The notes under the pieces: model-generated | Databases searched by the model: none | What the model saw: only the letters and a program-made list of their open reading frames with translations | Told to the model about the DNA's origin: nothing | Assembly: GCA_024641475.1 (NCBI GenBank) | Contig: JAHECZ010000028.1 | Span: 1-33,394, forward strand | Source of the DNA: Gammaproteobacteria bacterium | GTDB lineage: Bacteria > Pseudomonadota > Gammaproteobacteria > UBA6429 > Thiohalophilaceae | Length of the DNA stretch: 33,394 bases | Direction of reading: 5' to 3' | Shown: one piece after another, positions 2,507 to 16,577 of the stretch | Layout of the letters: each line of letters opens with the position of its first letter | Numbering within the stretch: position 1 is the stretch's first letter | Made by a program: the position numbers and the translations under genes

Positions 2507-2673
2507 TTACGTATCCGTACATTAATTATCGATGATGATGCGATAGTAAAGGCTGAATCTGAATATGGACTGAATTGCCTTGTGTAAACCAATATTTTTG
2601 TTGTCATCGGTCCTTCATTCCACTGTCATTCCTCACCCCTATAGTCAGATGCTCATTTACAAGGAGCATGCTT

Positions 2674-4245
2674 ATGTCTTTATTTGGTAAGAAATCAGTT
2701 AAAGTTTTGCAATTGAGCAGTATGGCGACTGCATGTGCTGCGGCACTGTGCATGTCTGCTGTAACTTGTACATTTGCCGCCCAACCAGTGATGGAGCAGG
2801 GTATTCAAATCGGGGATGTCACATCCGGTAGAGCGACGATCTGGAGTCGTGCTGATCATGCCGCACGGATGTGGGTCGAATACGCCTATAATCCGGAGTT
2901 TTCCAATTCAATGAAAGTACGTGGACCCTATGCGCTGGAGACAACCGACTTCACGGCGCGCCAGGATCTGGTGAATCTACCCGATGGCAGCGATGTCTAC
3001 GTCAAGGTCTGGTTTGAAGATTTATCCAATTCCCGCGAGATGAGTGAACCGGTCACGGGACATTTTCATACCATCGGTAAACATGAAAACATTCGCTTTG
3101 TCTGGGGCGGGGATACTGCCGGGCAAGGTTGGGGAATTAACGAAAGCTTCGGTGGTATGAAAATTTACGAAGCGATGCGGCAAGTGCAACCACAATTTTT
3201 TATTCAGAGTGGTGATAGTATCTATGCCGACGGAATCATCAAACCGGAACAAATGGCCGAGAATGGCCAAGTCTGGACCAACCGCGTAACACCGGCAGTG
3301 AGCAAGGTTGCTGAGACACTCGAGGACTTCCGTGGTCGTTACAAATACAATTTGCTCGATAGCAATCTGCGTCGATTCAATGCCGAAGTGCCCTCCATTT
3401 CACAATGGGATGATCACGAAGTCGTGAATAACTGGTCGGATTCCAAGGATCTGACGAACGACAGTCGCTACACCATCAAGGATATTCCATTGTTGGTGGC
3501 ACATGCTGCCACGGCCTATCATGAATTCGCACCGTCGCGTCCACATGATGCCGAGGAAAGCAATCGTGTCTATCGCAAGATTGCCTATGGCAAATTACTG
3601 GATGTGTTCGTGCTGGACATGCGCAGCTATCGCGGTCCCAATACCGCTAACCTGCAAACCACACCCGGTGCAGAAACTGCCTTTCTGGGCGCAACGCAAG
3701 TGGCCTGGCTGGAAAGCGAGTTGAAAAAATCCGAGGCCGTGTGGAAAGTCATCGCCGCCGACATGCCAATTGGTTTAAACGTCGGTGATGGTGTGGATGC
3801 GCAAGGTATTGCGCGTTGGGAAGCGGTGGCCAATGGCAATGATGGTCCTGCCGCAGGTCGTGAACTGGAAATGGCAAGTCTGCTGAGTTATATCAAGCAT
3901 GCTGACATTAACAACGTGGTGTGGTTAACCGCGGATGTGCATTATGCAGCGGCACATTTTTATGATCCGAAATATGCTGCGACGAAGGATTTTGCGCCAT
4001 TCTGGGAATTTGTTTCCGGACCGCTCAACGCCGGATCATTTGGACCCAACAGTATCGATGGCACGTTCGGACCACAAGTGGTTTTCAGCAAAGCACCCCC
4101 GGCCGGGCAAGCCAATCTGTCACCGTATGCTGGTTTGCAGTTTTTCGGGGAAGTGAATATCGATAAAAGAACCAAAGCCATGACCGTCGATCTCAAGGAT
4201 ATCAATGGTGCTAGCGTGTTTAGTAAAACGTTGAAGGCTGAATAA
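2674..4245 (+). CDS. PhoD-family alkaline phosphatase/phosphodiesterase, exported
   Basis: A 523-residue protein with a signal peptide (about residues 1-36, ending 'TFAA'), an N-terminal fibronectin-like domain ('IQIGDVTSGRATIWSRAD') and a PhoD metallophosphatase domain. Metal-site motifs are visible: 'GGDTAG' at 145-150, 'GDSIYADG' at 180-187, 'WDDHEVVNNW' in the middle, and 'LTADVHYAA' near the C-terminus. Family members release phosphate from phosphomonoesters or phosphodiesters outside the cytoplasm using Fe/Ca. The frame is open upstream to 2575, but 2674 is chosen because AAGGAG lies 7 bases before it; the ATG at 2668 is too close to that site. No Pho box was recognised upstream. Confidence 0.9.
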   Translation: MSLFGKKSVKVLQLSSMATACAAALCMSAVTCTFAAQPVMEQGIQIGDVTSGRATIWSRADHAARMWVEYAYNPEFSNSMKVRGPYALETTDFTARQDLVNLPDGSDVYVKVWFEDLSNSREMSEPVTGHFHTIGKHENIRFVWGGDTAGQGWGINESFGGMKIYEAMRQVQPQFFIQSGDSIYADGIIKPEQMAENGQVWTNRVTPAVSKVAETLEDFRGRYKYNLLDSNLRRFNAEVPSISQWDDHEVVNNWSDSKDLTNDSRYTIKDIPLLVAHAATAYHEFAPSRPHDAEESNRVYRKIAYGKLLDVFVLDMRSYRGPNTANLQTTPGAETAFLGATQVAWLESELKKSEAVWKVIAADMPIGLNVGDGVDAQGIARWEAVANGNDGPAAGRELEMASLLSYIKHADINNVVWLTADVHYAAAHFYDPKYAATKDFAPFWEFVSGPLNAGSFGPNSIDGTFGPQVVFSKAPPAGQANLSPYAGLQFFGEVNIDKRTKAMTVDLKDINGASVFSKTLKAE

Positions 4246-4271
4246 GCTCGTCGCGACCCATGCTGGAATAG

Positions 4272-4302
4272 GAGGGGCCTTTACGTAAGGTAACGGCCCC
4301 TC
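4272..4302. terminator. GC-rich hairpin after the phosphatase gene
   Basis: GAGGGGCC (4272-4279) pairs with GGCCCCTC (4295-4302) across a 15-base loop, 26 bases after the phosphatase stop. There is no good T run on either side, so it may be a pause or mRNA-stability hairpin rather than a strict intrinsic terminator. Confidence 0.5.
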
Positions 4303-4400
4303 GTCCTGGATCACTGATTTCCCGCCAAATTACCTTGTAGTTCACCAGGGATAAGCTATAACTGACTATATTACTTGGTAAATCTGGCCTGGACGAAATA

Positions 4401-5027
4401 ATGAAACTGGAAGCGTTACACCCCTCGGCGGACAATGAGCAAGCCAGAATCAGCGAACTGAAGTATCTTTTGCAGCAGCCTTCATATAAAGATGAACGGC
4501 CGTGCCGGGGTTGTATTAAATCCTGTCCGTGCAGTCAGTCAACATCCTGCACCTGTCTGTGTGATCCGGCCTGCGCACATGCGCCTCTCGCCATGTCTGT
4601 CGAACCCGCCCGATTTCCGATTGAGGGTAAAATTGTTGGCCTGGTGTTTGGCCTGAACAGTTTACGGGTGTTACCACCGTATTGGTCGTGTGAAGGGCAT
4701 CTGTTGCCAAACGGTGACATTCATCGGGTGCCACAGGTCTGGTTTTATTCGCGCTCCAATATCTATCCCAAACTCATCGCAGAATATATTCATAAACTCA
4801 GTATTGATAAAATCATTCGTTACCCTTGGCATGTCTGTCTGGCGTACACCGATAATAATCTGGAAACCGGTTTTAGCATCGAGCCAAACAGCAAGTTTAT
4901 CGAACAACCCGAATTACACATAATGCAGCAGGATGCGCAAATCATCGCAGCGAATATGCTGGTGGGTATCCGCTCGATAGCGCATGACTATATTCACAAA
5001 TATGAATCACGGACGAACAAGAGATAA
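4401..5027 (+). CDS. Hypothetical protein with cysteine-rich N-terminal cluster
   Basis: A 208-residue protein without signal peptide or membrane helices. Residues 35-58 contain eight Cys (35, 38, 42, 44, 50, 52, 54, 58), in CxxC, CPC and CTCLC arrangements typical of a metal or Fe-S site. A further Cys sits at 97 in the short block 'PPYWSCEGH'. The rest looks like an ordinary alpha/beta domain ('KIVGLVFGLNSLRVLPPYW', 'WHVCLAYTD'). The start at 4401 has only a weak GGAC-type ribosome binding site. I do not recognise the family, and a metal-binding role is an inference from Cys spacing only. It lies alone between the phosphatase and esterase genes on the same strand, with spacers of over 100 bases on both sides. 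Confidence 0.7.
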   Translation: MKLEALHPSADNEQARISELKYLLQQPSYKDERPCRGCIKSCPCSQSTSCTCLCDPACAHAPLAMSVEPARFPIEGKIVGLVFGLNSLRVLPPYWSCEGHLLPNGDIHRVPQVWFYSRSNIYPKLIAEYIHKLSIDKIIRYPWHVCLAYTDNNLETGFSIEPNSKFIEQPELHIMQQDAQIIAANMLVGIRSIAHDYIHKYESRTNKR

Positions 5028-5143
5028 TCGCGCGCTCGGTATCGGCCGGGTCATTGCTAAAAAAATAATCGGCAGCTATCCTTTTACAGGCAAAAAGCCT
5101 TCATCTTTGCATCTCCCCGGGAACCTAACGAGGTGTAGCGTTA

Positions 5144-6064
5144 ATGTCATATTTCAATAAACGAGTTTTGGCTGTCGCTCTGACTGGGTTGTTGGCAACG
5201 GGCTGTGTCATCAGCAATGCTGCTGATGAACAACGTCAATTGTTGAAATATAACGGGAGTGAACGCAGCTATCTCATCCATGTGCCGGGTAATCTAGCGA
5301 AGAATAATCAAATGTTACCGTTGGTGATGGTATTACATGGCGGTGGCGGGAATGGCGACAACGCCCAACGGATGACGGGTTTTAGCGCCAAGGCGGATGA
5401 ACAAGGTTTTATCGTTGTCTATCCCAATGGCTCCGGTCGGTTCAACAACAAATTACTGAGCTGGAATGCCGGCCATTGCTGCGCATATGCCATGAAGCAC
5501 AAAATCGATGATGTGGGGTTCATCAATGCACTCATCGACAAACTGATGCAGGAGTATCCGATCGATCCCAGGCGGATCTATGCGACCGGCATGTCCAATG
5601 GCGGGATGATGACGCACCGGCTTGGCATCGAGCTCGCCAACCGCTTCGCGGCGATCGCACCGGTTGTCGCCACCGTCTTTGGCGATGAAGCCAAACCGTC
5701 GCAACCGGTTTCGGTGATCATGTTAAACGGCTTGCTGGATAAATCCGTTCCTAATCAGGGTGGGCAACCCGGTGGTCGTTTCAAAGAGGAATGGGATGGT
5801 ACACCCGCAAAACCGGCAATCGAACAAGCGGCATATTGGGCAAAGGTCAATAACTGTAAGCAACCCGATCAGAAAGATCAGAAGTCCTATACTTTGACAG
5901 CGTATCATTGTCCGTCGGGTCAGGCTGTCGAGTTATATCTCTTCAAGCACAATGGTCATGCCTGGCCGGGCGGCGAGCAGGGCAGTCGGCGTGGTGATAA
6001 ACCTGATGCATCAGTGAATGCAACCGAGCTGATTTGGGATTTTTTCAAAACACATCCGAAATAG
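5144..6064 (+). CDS. Exported lipoprotein esterase of the PHB-depolymerase (LpqC-like) family
   Basis: A 306-residue alpha/beta hydrolase. The lipobox 'LATGC' puts the lipidated Cys at 21, so the enzyme should be membrane-anchored outside the cytoplasm. Family features are the oxyanion-hole segment 'HGGGGNGDN' (65-73), the nucleophile elbow 'GMSNGG' with Ser151, Asp199 in 'GLLDKSVP', and His272 in 'NGHAWPGG'. Close families include secreted poly(3-hydroxybutyrate) depolymerases and feruloyl/acetylxylan esterases; the substrate cannot be told from sequence. The ATG at 5144 is preceded by a GAGGTG ribosome binding site. It ends 4 bases before the convergent diguanylate cyclase gene. The size is normal for the family. 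Confidence 0.88.
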   Translation: MSYFNKRVLAVALTGLLATGCVISNAADEQRQLLKYNGSERSYLIHVPGNLAKNNQMLPLVMVLHGGGGNGDNAQRMTGFSAKADEQGFIVVYPNGSGRFNNKLLSWNAGHCCAYAMKHKIDDVGFINALIDKLMQEYPIDPRRIYATGMSNGGMMTHRLGIELANRFAAIAPVVATVFGDEAKPSQPVSVIMLNGLLDKSVPNQGGQPGGRFKEEWDGTPAKPAIEQAAYWAKVNNCKQPDQKDQKSYTLTAYHCPSGQAVELYLFKHNGHAWPGGEQGSRRGDKPDASVNATELIWDFFKTHPK

Positions 6065-6068
6065 TAAT

Positions 6069-7004
6069 TTACGCCGCCAGTTTCACCCGATTGCGCCCAC
6101 CATGTTTGGCGGCATACAACGCTTCATCCGCACGTTGCAATAGCGCCTTGAAATCAGCATCGCTGGATTGCAGTTCGGCAACCCCCAGACTGGCAGTGAC
6201 TTCGATCAACATGTCACCGGCAAGATAGGGATATTTATTAATGCGCAGTCGTAACCGTTCGGCCAGATACAGCGCGGATTTGCTTGGGGTATCCGGCAAT
6301 AAAATCGCAAATTCCTCGCCACCGATGCGTCCCATCAGATCCGTGCTGCGGATAACTTCCTGACAGGCCTCGGCAAAAATCTGCAACACCTGATCCCCGG
6401 CGGGATGGCCATAGCGATCATTCACCTGCTTGAAGTGATCGATATCCAGCATGATGACGGATAACGGCCGGCTGTAGCGTTTGCTGCGCGCATATTCCTT
6501 TTCGGCCTGTTGGTGGAAGGCAGGGCGATTTAAGGCACCGGTTAGTGAATCGAACAGCGCCAGCGTCGTTAGTTGCCGCTCAATATTCTTGTGACGGGTG
6601 ATGTCGCGGGCGACAAACGCAAAGTGGCTAATCTCGCCGGAGTCGGTACGCAAAGGAGTGACGGACATATCCAGCCAGCGGGTCTGGTTGTCCTTGGTGT
6701 AGTGCAGGATCTCGGTCCGAATGGCTTTGCCTTTTTTCAGATTGGCGCGGATCTTTTTATAGACGGAGATGTCAGTCTCAACACCATTGAAGAGCAGCGG
6801 CGACTGACCTATCAGCTCGGTGGCCAGGTAGCCCATGTGCAGTTCAAAAGCGGAGTTAACATATTCGATGAAGGGGCCGCCTGGTTCGTGGAGGCGGGCG
6901 TCCGTTAGCATCACCAGGTCGGTGGTGCTCTCTATCAGGGTCTTGAAGAGCTGTAGCAGTATGGTTCGTTTCCTCGCTCGTGAGGTTCCAATATGTATCG
7001 GCAA
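6069..7004 (-). CDS. PAS-GGDEF diguanylate cyclase
   Basis: A 311-residue cytosolic protein. A PAS/PAC domain covers roughly residues 16-142 ('LIESTTDLVMLTD' to 'FVARDITRHKNIE'). A GGDEF domain follows, with the active-site loop GGEEF at 228-232 and the allosteric inhibition site RSTD at 219-222, five residues before it. An active enzyme with c-di-GMP product inhibition is therefore expected, made from two GTP and tuned by whatever the PAS domain senses. No EAL domain or membrane helix is present. The only in-frame start near the natural N-terminus is TTG at 7004, with no clear ribosome binding site, so the start is uncertain. The gene is monocistronic. Confidence 0.9.
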   Translation of the reverse strand: MPIHIGTSRARKRTILLQLFKTLIESTTDLVMLTDARLHEPGGPFIEYVNSAFELHMGYLATELIGQSPLLFNGVETDISVYKKIRANLKKGKAIRTEILHYTKDNQTRWLDMSVTPLRTDSGEISHFAFVARDITRHKNIERQLTTLALFDSLTGALNRPAFHQQAEKEYARSKRYSRPLSVIMLDIDHFKQVNDRYGHPAGDQVLQIFAEACQEVIRSTDLMGRIGGEEFAILLPDTPSKSALYLAERLRLRINKYPYLAGDMLIEVTASLGVAELQSSDADFKALLQRADEALYAAKHGGRNRVKLAA

Positions 7005-8900: not shown

Positions 8901-9440
8901 ATGAGCCTGACTCAAAACAAGTGGTGGTATATCCTTATGTTCGCCTGGTTATTCTCCGCCAACAGCCACGCTGCAGATTTAACGGTCGGACAAACCGCAC
9001 CGGATTTTGCGTTGGTCGATCAACATGGCAAGACCCAACGCGTGTCGCAGTACACCGGCAAATGGATCGTGTTGTACTTTTATCCCAAGGATGACACGCC
9101 CGGTTGTACCGAGGAGGCCTGTCATTTTCGTGATGACATCCAGCAGTTACAAAAGCTTGGTGTGCAGGTATTGGGCGTGAGTCTGGATTCCGCAGCCAGC
9201 CACGCGGAATTCAGTAAAAAACACGGTCTGCCGTTTCCGTTACTGGCCGATACCGACGGTGCCGTCTGTGCGAGTTATCAGGCCTTGTTTTCATTGGGTC
9301 CCATTAAATTCGCCAAACGCCACTCTTTTATCATCAATCCGCAGGGCAAGATCGCCCGCCTCTGGCGTACGGTCGATACGGCCCAACACAGCGCCGACAT
9401 TATCCAGGCCGTCAAGGAACTGCAGGCTCTATATAAATAG
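8901..9440 (+). CDS. Periplasmic peroxiredoxin, BCP/PrxQ type
   Basis: A 179-residue protein with an N-terminal signal peptide (residues 1-24, ending 'NSHA') and a complete AhpC-TSA/PrxQ domain. The active site 'DTPGCT' carries the peroxidatic Cys69. Cys74 follows in 'EEACHFRD', the five-residue spacing typical of the atypical two-Cys BCP subfamily with an internal disulfide. It should reduce hydrogen peroxide and organic peroxides using thioredoxin-like donors. Most BCP proteins are cytosolic; the signal peptide here implies the periplasm, and an exported thiol donor would be required. The ribosome binding site before 8901 is weak. The spacing of 64 bases from the exporter gene suggests a separate unit. 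Confidence 0.9.
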   Translation: MSLTQNKWWYILMFAWLFSANSHAADLTVGQTAPDFALVDQHGKTQRVSQYTGKWIVLYFYPKDDTPGCTEEACHFRDDIQQLQKLGVQVLGVSLDSAASHAEFSKKHGLPFPLLADTDGAVCASYQALFSLGPIKFAKRHSFIINPQGKIARLWRTVDTAQHSADIIQAVKELQALYK

Positions 9441-11079: not shown

Positions 11080-11850
11080 TTATTTGTTAGGTGTTGTTGA
11101 TGTCAAAAGTACTTTGAAATTTTGTAATTGCACCAGATTCACATCCGAAACCAGCCAATAGTTCATGCCATCCTGTGACCAGTTAAGCAGGTGATAACCG
11201 TTTTGCGTGATACCGGAAGAGACGCGTGGTATCACCTTGGTTTGTGCCGGGTAGATAAACAGGCTGATGAGGTGCTGGCGATGCCGATATACCAGCGTGG
11301 CGACGGCGCGATGTTCCAGGTAGTCCATGCGTCCACCGATTAATGGAAAGCCTTCGGTGGTGAGATCGCGCACCGGCGGAGAAAAATCCAGTTTGCCATT
11401 GAACCAGGGTTTGACGGTGTGTTGATCCGACGAGGCGACATCGGTCAAGTGATTGGTGATCAGGCCGCGCACGTGGCTGGCAATCACCTCATCCGCTAAC
11501 CGTTCCGTGGCCGAAGGTTGCATAAAATAAAAACCGGCGCTGATGACAACTGCCATGAACGACGCGGCAATGGCACTGAGATTCAGCCAGCGTCGCGGAC
11601 GGCGTGTAACACTTAACGAAGTGGCTGGTGTCGATGGCAAGGCAGCTTTAATACGTTGCGCAAGTTCAGCGGGCGCCTGAAAATAGGTGAGCTGTTGTTG
11701 CAAGGCGGTGCGTTGCATTTTCTGCTCCTGATAGATGACCTGGCAGGCGAGACAGTCACGCAAATGCGCTTCCACCGTCATGGCATCGTGCAGACCAATC
11801 TCCTGATCCAGTAAGGCGGTAAAAAGTTCGCGTGCGCTATCACACTTCAT
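11080..11850 (-). CDS. Membrane-bound anti-sigma factor, zf-HC2 type
   Basis: A 256-residue protein. The N-terminal anti-sigma domain contains the zinc motif HxxxCxxC ('AHLRDCLAC') preceded by a Cys near the N-terminus ('MKCDSARELF'). A single membrane helix follows near residues 100-125 ('IAASFMAVVISAGFYF'), then a periplasmic domain with no recognised fold. Such proteins hold the partner ECF sigma factor inactive until a signal outside the membrane arrives. The ATG at 11850 lies within the end of the sigma gene (11 bases overlap), and GGAG sits seven bases before it, so translation is coupled. The frame extends upstream to 11904, but that part belongs to the sigma gene. Confidence 0.85.
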   Translation of the reverse strand: MKCDSARELFTALLDQEIGLHDAMTVEAHLRDCLACQVIYQEQKMQRTALQQQLTYFQAPAELAQRIKAALPSTPATSLSVTRRPRRWLNLSAIAASFMAVVISAGFYFMQPSATERLADEVIASHVRGLITNHLTDVASSDQHTVKPWFNGKLDFSPPVRDLTTEGFPLIGGRMDYLEHRAVATLVYRHRQHLISLFIYPAQTKVIPRVSSGITQNGYHLLNWSQDGMNYWLVSDVNLVQLQNFKVLLTSTTPNK

Positions 11851-12391
11851 AACAGAGCTCCACGGTGTGAGGTTGCAGGTACGCGGCCAGTTGTTTGCGG
11901 CCACGCGCCAGTCGTGACATGACGGTGCCGAGCGGAATGTCCATCAATACGGCGATTTCCTTGTACGCCAGGCCTTCGAGATCGCGTAACACCACCACCT
12001 CACGAAACTCCAGCGGCAGGTTACTCAAGGCTCGATTGAGTTGTTGCGTAGCATCGTGTTGCGACAAAATAGTTTCCGGGTTGCTGTGTGTGGTTTGCGC
12101 ATCAGTGTGTAAATGACCGTGTAATTCCTCATCATAGGTGGCGTGCAGTTCGTGCTGGCGATGTTGCCTGAACCAGTCGTAACAGGTATTACGTACGATA
12201 CCGAGTAACCAGGCGCGTTCGTTGCCGCCACGAAAACTTTCGAAATAGCGAAACGCGCGCAGAAACGCCTCCTGCACGATATCCTGGGCATCGGCATCCT
12301 TATGTACCAGCCAACGCGCCAGATTATAGGCCGCCGACAAATGCGGCAGTAACAGCGTTTCAAAGCGTTGGCGGCGGGTGTGTTCAGTCAT
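11840..12391 (-). CDS. ECF-family RNA polymerase sigma factor
   Basis: A 183-residue protein with sigma region 2 ('AYNLARWLVHKDADAQDIVQEAFLRAFR', then 'RAWLLGIVRNTCYDWFRQ') and region 4 ('LPLEFREVVVLRDLEGLAYKEIA', 'IPLGTVMSRLARGRKQLA'). Regions 1 and 3 are absent, as expected for ECF sigmas. It should direct RNA polymerase to a small regulon when released by the anti-sigma factor encoded directly downstream, with which it overlaps by 11 bases. The frame opens at 12433, but the ATG at 12391 is preferred because a plausible ECF-type promoter (12421-12450) would otherwise lie inside the gene. It is divergent from a Tat-exported phosphoesterase and cupredoxin, which are candidate targets. Confidence 0.9.
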   Translation of the reverse strand: MTEHTRRQRFETLLLPHLSAAYNLARWLVHKDADAQDIVQEAFLRAFRYFESFRGGNERAWLLGIVRNTCYDWFRQHRQHELHATYDEELHGHLHTDAQTTHSNPETILSQHDATQQLNRALSNLPLEFREVVVLRDLEGLAYKEIAVLMDIPLGTVMSRLARGRKQLAAYLQPHTVELCYEV

Positions 12392-12420: not shown

Positions 12421-12450
12421 ATATACGCCCCAACCAGAGGTTTTATTCCC
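12421..12450 (-). promoter_or_regulatory. Candidate ECF-type promoter of the sigma gene
   Basis: On the minus strand, GGGAATA (-35-like) is followed after 16 bases by CGTATAT (-10-like). ECF sigmas favour a GGAAC-type -35 and a CGTC-type -10 at this spacing, and they often drive their own genes. A start near 12414 would leave a leader of about 23 bases. No equally good motif was found before the divergent phosphoesterase gene. This is inference from motif shape. Confidence 0.35.
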
Positions 12451-12579
12451 GGATAATAAAAATAAATTCAGAGACGAGTTGGGGAATTAATTCATCAGAT
12501 CCGTGGTAGTGCGGTTAGGGAAGTTAACTCTGCAAAGCCTTCCTCACAGAACTTACCTATCAAAAATAAGGAGCAAGCG

Positions 12580-13479
12580 ATGACAAATCGGCGTGATTTT
12601 CTGAAGTTAGCAGGATTAGGTGGCGTGGTTTTCGCGTCAGGGTTGAGTCGTTTTGCTATTGGTGCGGACGGTAAACACGCCAGTGGCGCGATGGCGGAGG
12701 ATTTCTATTTCGTACAGCTATCCGATACCCATTGGGGATTTTCCGGCCCACCGAATCCCGAAGCCAAATCGACGCTAAAGAAAGCCGTGGCGGCAGTGAA
12801 CAGTCTGGCCACCCAACCGGACTTTGTGATCTTTACCGGCGATCTGACCCATACCACCGATGATCCGAAAGAACGGCGTAAACGTCTGGCGGAATTCCGC
12901 GATATCGTTGCTGAGCTCAAGGTTAAACAGGTGCGGTATATTCCCGGTGAACACGATGCGTCACTGGATAAAGGCGAGGCTTATCAGGAATTTTTCGGCA
13001 ATACTCACTACACCTTCGATCACAAAGGCATTCATTTTATTACATTGGATAATGTGTCCGATCCCGCCGGTCGTATCGGTGACGAACAGCTGGCGTGGTT
13101 AGAAGGGGATCTGAAGGCTCTGGCCAAGGACGCCAAAATCGTCGTATTCACGCATCGGCCGTTATTCGATCTGTATCCGCAATGGGATTGGGCGACACGC
13201 GATGGCGCCAAGGCGATGGATTTATTAATGCCGTATCAGAATGTCACGGTGTTCTACGGGCATATCCATCAGGAGCATCATCACATGACCGGGCATATTC
13301 CCCATCATGCGGCCAAATCGCTGATCTTTCCGTTACCGGTAGCCGGTTCACAACCCAAACGCGCACCGCTGCCGTGGGATGCCGCGCAACCATTCAAGGG
13401 TTTGGGATTTCGCGAAGTCGAGGCAGACGTCAAACCCAACAAGTTTGATATCAAAGAGCTCACGATCAAAGCGAGTTAA
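12580..13479 (+). CDS. Tat-exported metallophosphoesterase
   Basis: A 299-residue calcineurin-like phosphoesterase. The N-terminus is a Tat signal ('RRDFLK' at 4-9, then a hydrophobic stretch to about residue 29), so the folded, metal-loaded enzyme should reach the periplasm. Metal-site blocks are 'SDTHWG' (Asp49, His51), 'GDLTH' (87-91), 'GEHD' (123-126), 'THRP' with His192, and 'GHIH' (227-230). The third block normally reads GNHD; Glu replaces the Asn that usually contacts metal and phosphate. AAGGAG eight bases before the ATG supports the start. A cupredoxin gene follows after 3 bases, so the two are likely one operon, divergent from the ECF sigma gene. The substrate is unknown. Confidence 0.88.
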   Translation: MTNRRDFLKLAGLGGVVFASGLSRFAIGADGKHASGAMAEDFYFVQLSDTHWGFSGPPNPEAKSTLKKAVAAVNSLATQPDFVIFTGDLTHTTDDPKERRKRLAEFRDIVAELKVKQVRYIPGEHDASLDKGEAYQEFFGNTHYTFDHKGIHFITLDNVSDPAGRIGDEQLAWLEGDLKALAKDAKIVVFTHRPLFDLYPQWDWATRDGAKAMDLLMPYQNVTVFYGHIHQEHHHMTGHIPHHAAKSLIFPLPVAGSQPKRAPLPWDAAQPFKGLGFREVEADVKPNKFDIKELTIKAS

Positions 13480-13482
13480 GCC

Positions 13483-13851
13483 ATGGTCAAACAACAACGT
13501 AACCTGCTTTGGTTGGGATTAGTGGCGCTGCTCGGTGGCGGTATGATCGGTGCGTATGTGTTCGCCACGCCGACAGAGCAGGTAATCAAGATCAATTCGA
13601 AGAAATTCGTGTTCATCCCCAACCAGATCACGTTGAAAAAAGGGACGCCGGTGATTCTGCAATTCACTTCGGAAGATGTGATGATGGGTTTTTATGTGCC
13701 GGAACTGGGCTTGCGCACGGACGTGATCCCCGGTCAGGTGCGTGAACTACGGGTGGTACCGGAGAAGATCGGCAACTTTGCGTTTGTCTGTGATGTGTTT
13801 TGTGGCAGTGGCCATGAAGACATGAACGGCATGCTGAGTGTGGTGGAGTAG
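13483..13851 (+). CDS. CuA-like cupredoxin (cytochrome oxidase subunit II-type domain), one ligand replaced
   Basis: A 122-residue protein with an N-terminal membrane anchor or signal ('LLWLGLVALLGGGMIGAYVF') and one cupredoxin domain. The C-terminal loop 'CDVFCGSGHEDM' supplies Cys103, Cys107, His111 and Met114 in exactly the CuA spacing C-x3-C-x3-H-x2-M. The upstream histidine expected in 'DVxHxF' is Met68 ('EDVMMGFYVPELG'), and the Glu of 'CxExC' is Val105. 'FYVPELGLRTDVIPGQ' otherwise matches oxidase subunit II well. It could be an electron carrier, a copper carrier or a modified CuA site outside the membrane. It starts 3 bases after the phosphoesterase stop, so it is probably coupled to it. 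Confidence 0.85.
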   Translation: MVKQQRNLLWLGLVALLGGGMIGAYVFATPTEQVIKINSKKFVFIPNQITLKKGTPVILQFTSEDVMMGFYVPELGLRTDVIPGQVRELRVVPEKIGNFAFVCDVFCGSGHEDMNGMLSVVE

Positions 13852-14976: not shown

Positions 14977-15642
14977 TCACGCATCAAGTGCATCAAGAAT
15001 ATCTTTGGCTTCCACCCGTTGCCGATAATCACCGCCTTCTGATGCGGCGAAGCTAATGATGCCGTTTTTGGCGATGACAAACGTGGCGGGCACCGGCAAC
15101 TCGGCGGACTTATCGGCATAAAACGAATGGAAATCGTAGCCCAGTTCGGTCATCGCCTGGATGGATGATTGAGGATTGGTGATGATGGCGGTGAATTGCC
15201 GGGCTACCTTGTTGCCGATGTCGCTGAGAACTTCGAACTGTAGTTCATTGGTTTGTTTCTGATTCAAGGAGTGATCCGGTGTCATCGGTGAAACGGCAAC
15301 GAGCTGCGCACCCGCTTCGGTGATTTGCGGCAGAATTTGCTGATAGTTCTTTAACTGTAAATTACAGTAAGGACACCAGCCGCCACGGTAAAACGTTAAG
15401 ACGACAGGACCTTGTCGCAGTAAATCTTGCAAATTTATGATATTGCCTGATGCGTTCGGTAGTGTGAAGGCTGGCGCCATGTCTCCTGCACGCAACTTGA
15501 TCGGTGACAAATGTTGTTGCCCCAATTGCCTGGCATCGTTGCCAAAAATGGCGAGTTTCTCCGCCGGCAGCATTTGTCCGAGTTGCTGGACAAGTCCTTT
15601 GAGGTCTTCTTTATAAGATGGAACATCGATGATCTTAGACAT
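14977..15642 (-). CDS. Peroxiredoxin-like AhpC/TSA thioredoxin-fold protein
   Basis: A 221-residue cytosolic protein with an AhpC/TSA domain. A helical N-terminal segment of about 45 residues leads into 'GDMAPAFTLPNASG'. The active-site block is 'RGGWCPYCNLQL' with Cys90 and Cys93, a CxxC in place of the single peroxidatic Cys of classical peroxiredoxins. This is the usual form in the AhpC/TSA group often annotated as peroxiredoxin-like. It probably reduces peroxides or disulfides. The frame extends to 15741, but the ATG at 15642 has AGGAG eight bases upstream and is preferred. A terminator follows. Repeated TGCAT half sites lie 75-110 bases upstream of the start. Confidence 0.88.
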   Translation of the reverse strand: MSKIIDVPSYKEDLKGLVQQLGQMLPAEKLAIFGNDARQLGQQHLSPIKLRAGDMAPAFTLPNASGNIINLQDLLRQGPVVLTFYRGGWCPYCNLQLKNYQQILPQITEAGAQLVAVSPMTPDHSLNQKQTNELQFEVLSDIGNKVARQFTAIITNPQSSIQAMTELGYDFHSFYADKSAELPVPATFVIAKNGIISFAASEGGDYRQRVEAKDILDALDA

Positions 15643-15714
15643 GTTGACTACTCCTGTGTTGATGGGGATGTGGTCAGCGTAGTCATACGTGTAGAAGCAA
15701 TAAACCGGAGCGGA

Positions 15715-15748
15715 TGCATTACCACAATGCAATTCTTGCATTAATGCA
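15715..15748. promoter_or_regulatory. TGCAT repeat cluster upstream of the peroxiredoxin gene
   Basis: Three sites lie within 34 bases: TGCATT (15715-15720), TGCAAT (15728-15733), and the perfect 12-base palindrome TGCATTAATGCA (15737-15748). The palindrome plus the T before it also fits the T-N11-A form used by LysR regulators. The position before the peroxiredoxin start suggests an operator; the binding protein is not known. Confidence 0.4.
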
Positions 15749-15785: not shown

Positions 15786-16577
15786 CTATTCGGCGTCGTT
15801 CGCGCAGCGAAACCCAACTGATCCATAGATCGTGTCGCCGCTAATTGGTGGTTTGACATTGCGATATGATGCGCGCAGGTTTTTGACTTTTTCGTCCCAG
15901 GAGGCACCGCGGATGACTTTGCCGTCGCTGTGTTTGGGATAGTCGAGTTCACCTTTGGCGTAATGCGCCAGTGCATCTTTGGCGTAACCATTGGCGACCC
16001 ATTCACCGGCGTTGCCGTACATATCGTAAATGCCCAGGGTATTCGGCGCGCGCGATGCGACTGGCCAGGTGCGATCTTCGCCGCAGCCATCTTTTTCACC
16101 TTTGACGGAGCCGGTGGTCTTGCCATCGTTGGCGATGGCTTGGGTGCAATTGATCGATTTACCGGTGTAATAAGGCGACGTGGTACCAGCGCGCGCAGCT
16201 TTTTCCCATTCGGCTTCCCACGGCAAGCGTTTACCCTGAGTGGCACAATATTTTTCAGCATCGACCCAGTCAACGCAATTCACCGGATGATTATCGCGAG
16301 ATGGCGCGGCGTAATTACAATATTGATTACGGGTGTGGTCCTTTGGGACCGCGCACTTACCTGTGTTCACACAGTCACGATATTGCGCGACGGTGACTTC
16401 GCGCGCATCGATGCTGAATGCGGGCACCTTGACGGTAACGGCGGGTTTTTCATCGGTATCGCAGAGTTTATCTCCGGAAGAACAACCCATGCGGAAGGTT
16501 CCCGCTGGCACGGTGATCATGTTGTCACCCCACGCCAGTGTGGTACAGAGTAACAAAACGTATCCCAGGTTGCGCAT
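15786..16577 (-). CDS. Exported SUMF1/formylglycine-enzyme-fold protein
   Basis: A 263-residue protein with a signal peptide of about 17 residues ('LGYVLLLCTTLAWG') and a SUMF1/FGE-sulfatase domain. Typical blocks are 'TVPAGTFRMG', 'VTVAQYRDCV', 'HPVNCVDWVDAEKYC', 'RLPWEAEWEKAARAG', 'YGNAGEWVANGY', 'IRGASWDE' and 'GSVGFRCA'. True formylglycine-generating enzymes bind copper through two Cys near the 'SYRN' region. Those are absent here, so formylglycine formation is unlikely; many bacterial relatives are structural or serve other roles. Several extra Cys may form disulfides in the periplasm. AAGGAG sits close before the ATG at 16577. No sulfatase gene lies nearby. Confidence 0.85.
   Translation of the reverse strand: MRNLGYVLLLCTTLAWGDNMITVPAGTFRMGCSSGDKLCDTDEKPAVTVKVPAFSIDAREVTVAQYRDCVNTGKCAVPKDHTRNQYCNYAAPSRDNHPVNCVDWVDAEKYCATQGKRLPWEAEWEKAARAGTTSPYYTGKSINCTQAIANDGKTTGSVKGEKDGCGEDRTWPVASRAPNTLGIYDMYGNAGEWVANGYAKDALAHYAKGELDYPKHSDGKVIRGASWDEKVKNLRASYRNVKPPISGDTIYGSVGFRCANDAE

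Follow-up and report, generated by a model that had tools for sequence, protein, structure and literature searches.

The window, by which is meant the whole stretch of 33,394 nucleotides analysed, encodes a small exported cupredoxin with the fold and ligand loop of a CuA centre, in which the first histidine ligand is replaced by methionine. This replacement is conserved among relatives and the gene is linked to one for a calcineurin-like phosphoesterase (MPE) bearing a twin-arginine (Tat) signal. Together the conserved swap and the linkage point to an undescribed electron-carrying partnership and not to a broken gene. Neither the fold nor the loop of the cupredoxin is out of the ordinary; what is new is its conserved Met-for-His ligand and its partnership with a phosphoesterase. 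The features of the cupredoxin gene are as follows.

13483..13851, forward strand: exported cupredoxin of 122 amino acids, with a CuA-type fold at residues 30-122
13678..13680, forward strand: codon of Val66, two residues N-terminal of Met68
13684..13686, forward strand: ATG codon of Met68, in the place of the first CuA His
13789..13824, forward strand: ligand loop CDVFCGSGHEDM, with Cys103, Cys107, His111 and Met114

The ORF, its coordinates and its residues are as described in an earlier sequence-only reading of this DNA. The protein has an N-terminal hydrophobic signal or anchor at approximately residues 8-28 (judged by eye) and possesses matches to the Pfam families Cupredoxin_1 (44.1 bits) and COX2 (42.4 bits), each above its cut-off. 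A search of the PDB gave CuA domains as best matches, including that of Thermus (2cua, E-value 1.4e-14). In three PDB alignments among the matches listed, 2cua being one of them, Met68 aligns on the His of DVIHGF, with Cys103, Cys107, His111 and Met114 falling on the remaining CuA ligands; this bears out the earlier claims that these four keep CuA spacing and that the His of the DVxHxF motif has become Met68. The canonical CuA motif is given as Hx34Cx3Cx3Hx2M in the available part of a paper on PmoD (PMC6189053). The cupredoxin reads M68-x34-C103-x3-C107-x3-H111-x2-M114, identical in spacing and differing in one letter, the first His. Its AlphaFold2 model (61 sequences) has a mean pLDDT of 87.3, with blocks of 92-98 from residue 31, and matches 2cua with a Z score of 15.0 and an rmsd of 1.4 over 94 aligned residues at 30% identity. 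Nitrosocyanin is also a near fold match (Z 14.4) and the quinol oxidase protein CyoA is among the matches of the model.

With the CuA domains of cytochrome c oxidase subunit II and nitrous oxide reductase, the protein shares the COX2-type cupredoxin fold, the CxxxCxxxHxxM loop and the exact x34 spacing. It differs from these in having Met for the first His, Val for the Glu of CxExC and a gene that stands alone. Because the first ligand fails, the site is not classed as CuA, in spite of its fold, its loop and the exact spacing of the other four ligands. The protein scores 68.8 bits against the CoxB equivalog, the cut-off of which is 147.7, and no oxidase gene was found among the 20 window proteins scanned. 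Against the nitrosocyanin family TIGR03096 it scores 16.4 bits (cut-off 142.85), while Copper-bind (PF00127), a domain matched by its distant counterparts in the same gene slot, is unlisted for it up to an E-value of 1, with filters that may drop weak matches.

The sequence-only reading was correct that Val105 stands in place of the Glu of CxExC, a position with Glu or Gln in all 54 COX2-like controls. However, as this Glu binds copper in CuA through its backbone carbonyl only, and as position 105 is Ile, Val, Asn or, once, Ser in Met68 and His68 relatives alike, the change alone leaves the copper set as it was. Val105 as a cause of altered copper chemistry was set aside, the His-type relatives being without the Glu too.

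Relatives were sought in GTDB release 220 (one genome per species) using the neighbouring phosphoesterase, and not the cupredoxin, as query, so that position 68 was not directly selected for. The best 80 of 140 confirmed loci were kept, the ranking being by similarity to the MPE of the window. In these 80, position 68 is Met in 42 and His in 38 with no other residue, and the codons concerned, ATG and CAT/CAC, have no base in common, differing at all three positions. Of the 80 loci, 79 retain all four other ligands, the exception (L070) stopping at a contig edge. The full cupredoxin alignment has 84 rows, these being the 80 loci, the window, a Cupriavidus campinensis plasmid, a Janthinobacterium lividum plasmid and G001, a genome of the same genus as the window; an Ilyobacter plasmid (L037, His type, 81.6 bits) and L038, which is the window again, were left out, and L040 to L043 gave no cupredoxin match and were dropped before counting. 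Here the counts are 44 Met and 40 His, again with nothing else, and Cys103, Cys107, His111 and Met114 are constant apart from the truncated L070 and a Cys103 to Ala change in the J. lividum plasmid (L035). Both Cys residues are retained in all 43 complete Met-type rows.

A control set of 61 rows was also aligned, 54 of which are COX2-like as called by match and loop rather than by annotation; every one of the 54 has His at position 68 together with a CxE/QxC loop. Set aside were both copies of the window, the Met row L130, the His-type family members L006 and L131, L002, in which the ligand positions gave no cupredoxin match, and L010, which has lost its ligands; rows L136 and L137 are identical over the ligand region shown. 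Since position 68 is only ever Met or His, the rest of the ligands are intact and the COX2-like controls all have His, Met68 appears to be a conserved alternative ligand, its binding of copper being predicted from this pattern. Position 66 follows the same division, being Val, Ile, Ala or Leu in all 43 complete Met68 rows (L070, a Met row cut before the loop, is omitted here and from the concatenated tree below) and Phe, Arg or Ser in all 40 His68 rows, while position 67, next to it, is highly variable. The combined pattern at positions 66 and 68 points to a ligand whose pocket has adapted to it and not to decay, with the caveat that the loci were sampled by similarity to the window's MPE. Met68, kept in 42 of 80 loci beside so variable a neighbour, is not a chance find.

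The check proposed in the sequence-only reading, an alignment of homologues, found Met68 in 42 of 80 loci, and the CuA-type ligand set in which the replacement sits appears functional. The same reading had held that homologues with His68 would suggest a recent loss of function. Such homologues do exist, one of them in the same genus (G001), but Met68 is as common as His68 and recent loss is rejected by its conservation. A more general proposal is that metal binding has been lost altogether, with Met68 marking a decayed or purely structural domain. The expected His is indeed absent, the quinol oxidase relatives (CyoA) retain the fold and have lost CuA, and control row L010 has lost its His and both Cys together. 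This is nevertheless very improbable, as no complete Met row, however deeply diverged, has lost any of the other ligands and Met is the sole substitute, whereas loss of the kind seen in L010 alters several ligands at once.

When a Met-type profile was searched against 398 Pseudomonadota genomes, matches were found in 83, with three of these strong (the window's genome, G554 and G524; E-values of 1e-35 or better, the next best being 3.5e-19). The strong matches in G554 and G524 both adjoin MPE and sigma factor genes, and the 27 weaker matches that were examined are COX2-like.

With regard to the history of the two forms, four Met/His changes are needed on a tree of MPE only, and three on a concatenated tree from which cupredoxin columns 64-68 and 105 were removed. 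On the latter, the data do not reject one clade holding all Met rows (p-AU 0.171), leaving a repeated origin of Met68 unsupported, and the state at position 68 is old and stable. The window has Met68 but G001 of the same genus has His68, and Collimonas humicola carries one Met operon (L072) as well as one His operon (L114), so one form may not simply stand in for the other.

The cupredoxin gene lies at the end of a small cluster with the following features.

11080..11904, reverse strand: zf-HC2 anti-sigma factor (profile matches)
11840..12391, reverse strand: ECF sigma factor, divergent (profile matches)
12425..12449, reverse strand: motif GGAAT-N17-CGT, one base off, facing the sigma gene
12483..12507, forward strand: ECF-type promoter-like motif GGAAT-N17-GGT, directed toward the MPE and cupredoxin genes
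12580..13479, forward strand: Tat-exported calcineurin-like phosphoesterase (MPE), 299 amino acids, just upstream of the cupredoxin
12949..12951, forward strand: codon of Glu124 of GEHD, replacing the metal-binding Asn of GNHD/E

Owing to the position of the promoter-like motif, the sigma gene likely starts at ATG 12391 rather than at TTG 12433. The pairing with a phosphoesterase, regarded as unexpected in the sequence-only reading, turns out to be customary. A cupredoxin gene lies downstream of MPE in all 80 of the best 80 of 140 loci found with MPE as query, with sigma and anti-sigma matches each present in 74 of these, some of the stretches being cut by contig ends; the sigma gene is mostly divergent as in the window and downstream in some loci. 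In the reverse direction, with the cupredoxin as query, MPE adjoins four of the five family cupredoxins (G001, C. campinensis, G554 and G524) and is absent beside that of the J. lividum plasmid. Chance pairing is rejected by these counts in both directions. Sigma factor, anti-sigma factor, MPE and cupredoxin form a module with shared promoter-like motifs, in which the pairing is the rule. No MPE was found in the 12 kb J. lividum stretch (L035, region of interest 4680-6276), where an IS4/5-type transposase gene takes its place, and this module, with Cys103 changed to Ala and MPE gone, may be decaying. Second, fragmentary C-terminal copies of the cupredoxin, which were not counted, lie downstream in two Ralstonia loci (L118, 8411-8611; L091, 6980-7417), as if left by duplication. 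The window also has AhpC/TSA peroxiredoxin-type genes flanking the module at some distance (8901-9440 and 14977-15741) and a gene for an FGE-sulfatase-type (formylglycine-generating-like) protein (15786-16577).

Between the sigma and MPE genes, GGAAT-N17-GGT is found toward MPE in 33 and toward sigma in 35 of 42 regions, these being the regions of at most 650 bases among 51, with related regions inflating the count. At most 5 were found in shuffled regions (three shuffles, keeping base content only). No GGAAT-type motif was found by regular expression at the G001 locus (L039). A scan of genomes with GGGAATA-N15,16-CGGTA gave two matches in the window's genome (G000), two in G001, one in G554 and none in G524 or G362, while its backward control gave one match each in G524 and G362. 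The G554 match alone is located at the operon. All four matches in G000 and G001 are of the longer-spacer form, and the two motif copies of the window differ from this pattern and are absent from its matches.

MPE possesses a Metallophos domain (52.8 bits) and a twin-arginine signal (TAT_signal_seq, 22.0 bits, above its cut-off), and its export is predicted. Conservation indicates D49, H51, D88, E124, H192, H228 and H230 as its likely metal residues. Class III cyclic nucleotide phosphodiesterases are characterised by the motifs D-x-H, GD, GNHD/E, H and GHxH, and MPE has all of these with the exception of GNHD, which is GEHD. The Glu is present in all 92 aligned MPE rows, other phyla included, while Asn is found in the four with a readable motif among seven other phosphoesterases of the window's genome. 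A gene for one PhoD-like phosphatase is located in the window at 2575-4245, about 8 kb upstream of MPE. The model of MPE has a mean pLDDT of 71.8, both ends being weak, and its fold matches are GpdQ (Z 23.0, rmsd 2.8) and Rv0805 (2hy1; Z 20.2, rmsd 2.9), with purple acid phosphatases at a Z of approximately 17. GpdQ and Rv0805, both dimetal phosphodiesterases, are like MPE in fold and in six of the seven metal residues, and MPE differs from them in its Glu for the Asn of GNHD, its Tat export and its pairing with a copper or haem protein. As the active form of purple acid phosphatases has mixed-valent iron, a natural reading would be that the carrier sets the redox state of a dinuclear centre in MPE. 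However, since calcineurin-like enzymes are hydrolases that require no electron partner, the carrier may serve something other than MPE.

The same slot is filled by other carriers elsewhere. A search of the 398 Pseudomonadota genomes with an MPE profile identified MPE in 18, the window's genome included, and the gene beside it encodes a CuA-type cupredoxin in three (Met in the window and G554, His in G524), an amicyanin-like blue-copper cupredoxin in 14 and no carrier in one (G407). The amicyanin-like proteins have the same slot and neighbours as the window cupredoxin but differ in having a plastocyanin/azurin-family domain with the one-copper set of His, Cys, His and Met (motif judged by eye). 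In G362, which belongs to a previous sample of the class (369 genomes), a dihaem cytochrome c occupies the slot. A plasmid of Gemmatirosa kalamazoonensis (L128, 4812-6242) encodes a 476-residue ORF in which Metallophos (110-303) is fused to Copper-bind (400-475), the cupredoxin part being of the blue-copper kind. Because a haem protein can be swapped in and one such fusion exists, electron transfer to or from MPE is favoured over copper delivery. A Mycobacteroides plasmid (L124) has the order sigma factor, Rieske protein, amicyanin-like cupredoxin, MPE; the Rieske protein (3706-4410) is in the anti-sigma position, has a probable membrane helix (by eye) and is possibly a redox-sensing anti-sigma factor.

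It was suggested in the sequence-only reading that the protein might be a copper carrier. Put as a role in carrying or buffering Cu(I) in the periplasm, so as to load or protect other proteins under copper stress, with a copper-responsive sigma factor, this proposal is unlikely, mainly on account of the dihaem cytochrome, which has no copper (one genome), and the blue-copper cupredoxins (14 of 18 genomes) in the slot, the latter usually being electron carriers. In addition, no copper pump, CopC/D or PCuAC is named among the families listed for the 20 window proteins scanned, and one window histidine kinase has a heavy-metal-sensor match far below the cut-off. On the other hand, the sulfur-rich ligand set favours Cu(I), the Met-type profile also matches pneumococcal CupA (2mry/4f2e, E-value 2.3e-7), and the distant His-type CuA-loop cupredoxin of the Ilyobacter plasmid (L037, 4878-5270), in a stretch where no MPE was found, sits among multicopper-oxidase and heavy-metal genes. 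The available part of a review (PMC7558416) describes CupA of Streptococcus pneumoniae as a cupredoxin having one bis-thiolate site and a second that is rich in Met. As a cupredoxin with a sulfur-rich binuclear copper site it would resemble the window protein, but it is a Cu(I) chaperone for the CopA exporter and that part of the review describes no MPE module.

The number of coppers bound is a separate matter. A mononuclear site, type 1 or red-copper-like, would have Met68 holding no second copper and one Cys spare, making the protein a one-copper carrier. One-copper amicyanin-like proteins are indeed present at most Pseudomonadota MPE loci (14 of 18 genomes), nitrosocyanin is the near fold match noted above and the first Cys is Ala in J. 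lividum. We consider such a site quite unlikely, as all complete Met rows keep both Cys, which one copper does not need, and L035 has a transposase gene in the gap left by MPE and so is perhaps decaying. PmoD is a precedent for a CuA centre formed with a Met, its atypical CuA being built in a homodimer and abolished by loss of a Met (PMC6189053, available part), although this centre involves two molecules and a different part of the fold, and PmoD is without the Cx3Cx3Hx2M loop.

We tentatively prefer, with confidence just short of even, the explanation that the CuA-derived Met-for-His cupredoxin is a dedicated electron carrier of the GEHD-type MPE under a divergent ECF sigma factor. It builds on what is observed, namely the residues, their conservation, the linkage, the carrier swap in the slot, the one fusion and the conserved promoter-like motifs. 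According to this explanation the protein would be a free-standing cupredoxin of the periplasm, descended from the CuA fold, with a putative copper site of two Cys, one His and two Met in which Met68 acts as ligand in place of the first CuA His. If the site is binuclear, one copper would receive a Cys2Met2 set, presuming that we have correctly assigned which CuA His binds which copper. The cupredoxin may carry electrons to or from the Tat-exported MPE encoded directly upstream, for example so that a dinuclear iron centre stays in the redox state in which it is active, and the divergent ECF sigma factor, once released by its anti-sigma factor, would drive expression of the pair.

Counted against the carrier role are the MPE of G407, which is without a carrier, and the context of L037, which suits copper handling. 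Nor do the gene neighbourhoods reveal an electron route for the Met type, a monohaem cytochrome c gene being present in none of 42 Met-type loci compared with 17 of 38 His-type loci. As all 17 fall within one clade of 23 rows, with the loop CDNFC, the link between monohaem cytochrome and His68, though real, may be a single event. A looser scan for CxxCH gave 20 of 40 His loci and 6 of 43 Met loci, the latter matches being mostly chance frames by eye, with a plausible cytochrome on the other strand in L080.

A wider extension of the electron-carrier explanation is that this is a redox-coupled system, in which a Glu-modified calcineurin-fold dinuclear enzyme is switched or driven by a swappable periplasmic carrier under an ECF sigma factor. 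Evolution would then have exchanged the carrier among blue copper, CuA, Met-for-His CuA and haem, and the Rieske protein in the anti-sigma slot of the sigma counterpart on the Mycobacteroides plasmid would belong to the same scheme. This extension is rather unlikely on present evidence.

To our knowledge, ligand changes in CuA have been studied mostly in engineered proteins, and the Met68 form would be the first centre in nature to combine a CuA loop with a thioether for the first imidazole. The literature searched, which omits most subscription journals, gave no description of a Met-for-His CuA or of the MPE-cupredoxin module; on CuA ligands, the same search returned work on PmoD and nitrous oxide reductase and no natural Met-for-His CuA. 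The family provides a natural Met/His series in one genomic setting, with both forms present in C. humicola, in which native proteins would allow measurement of how a single ligand affects potential and copper number. The exchange of carriers beside MPE, for its part, points to an unrecognised redox role of a calcineurin-fold enzyme.
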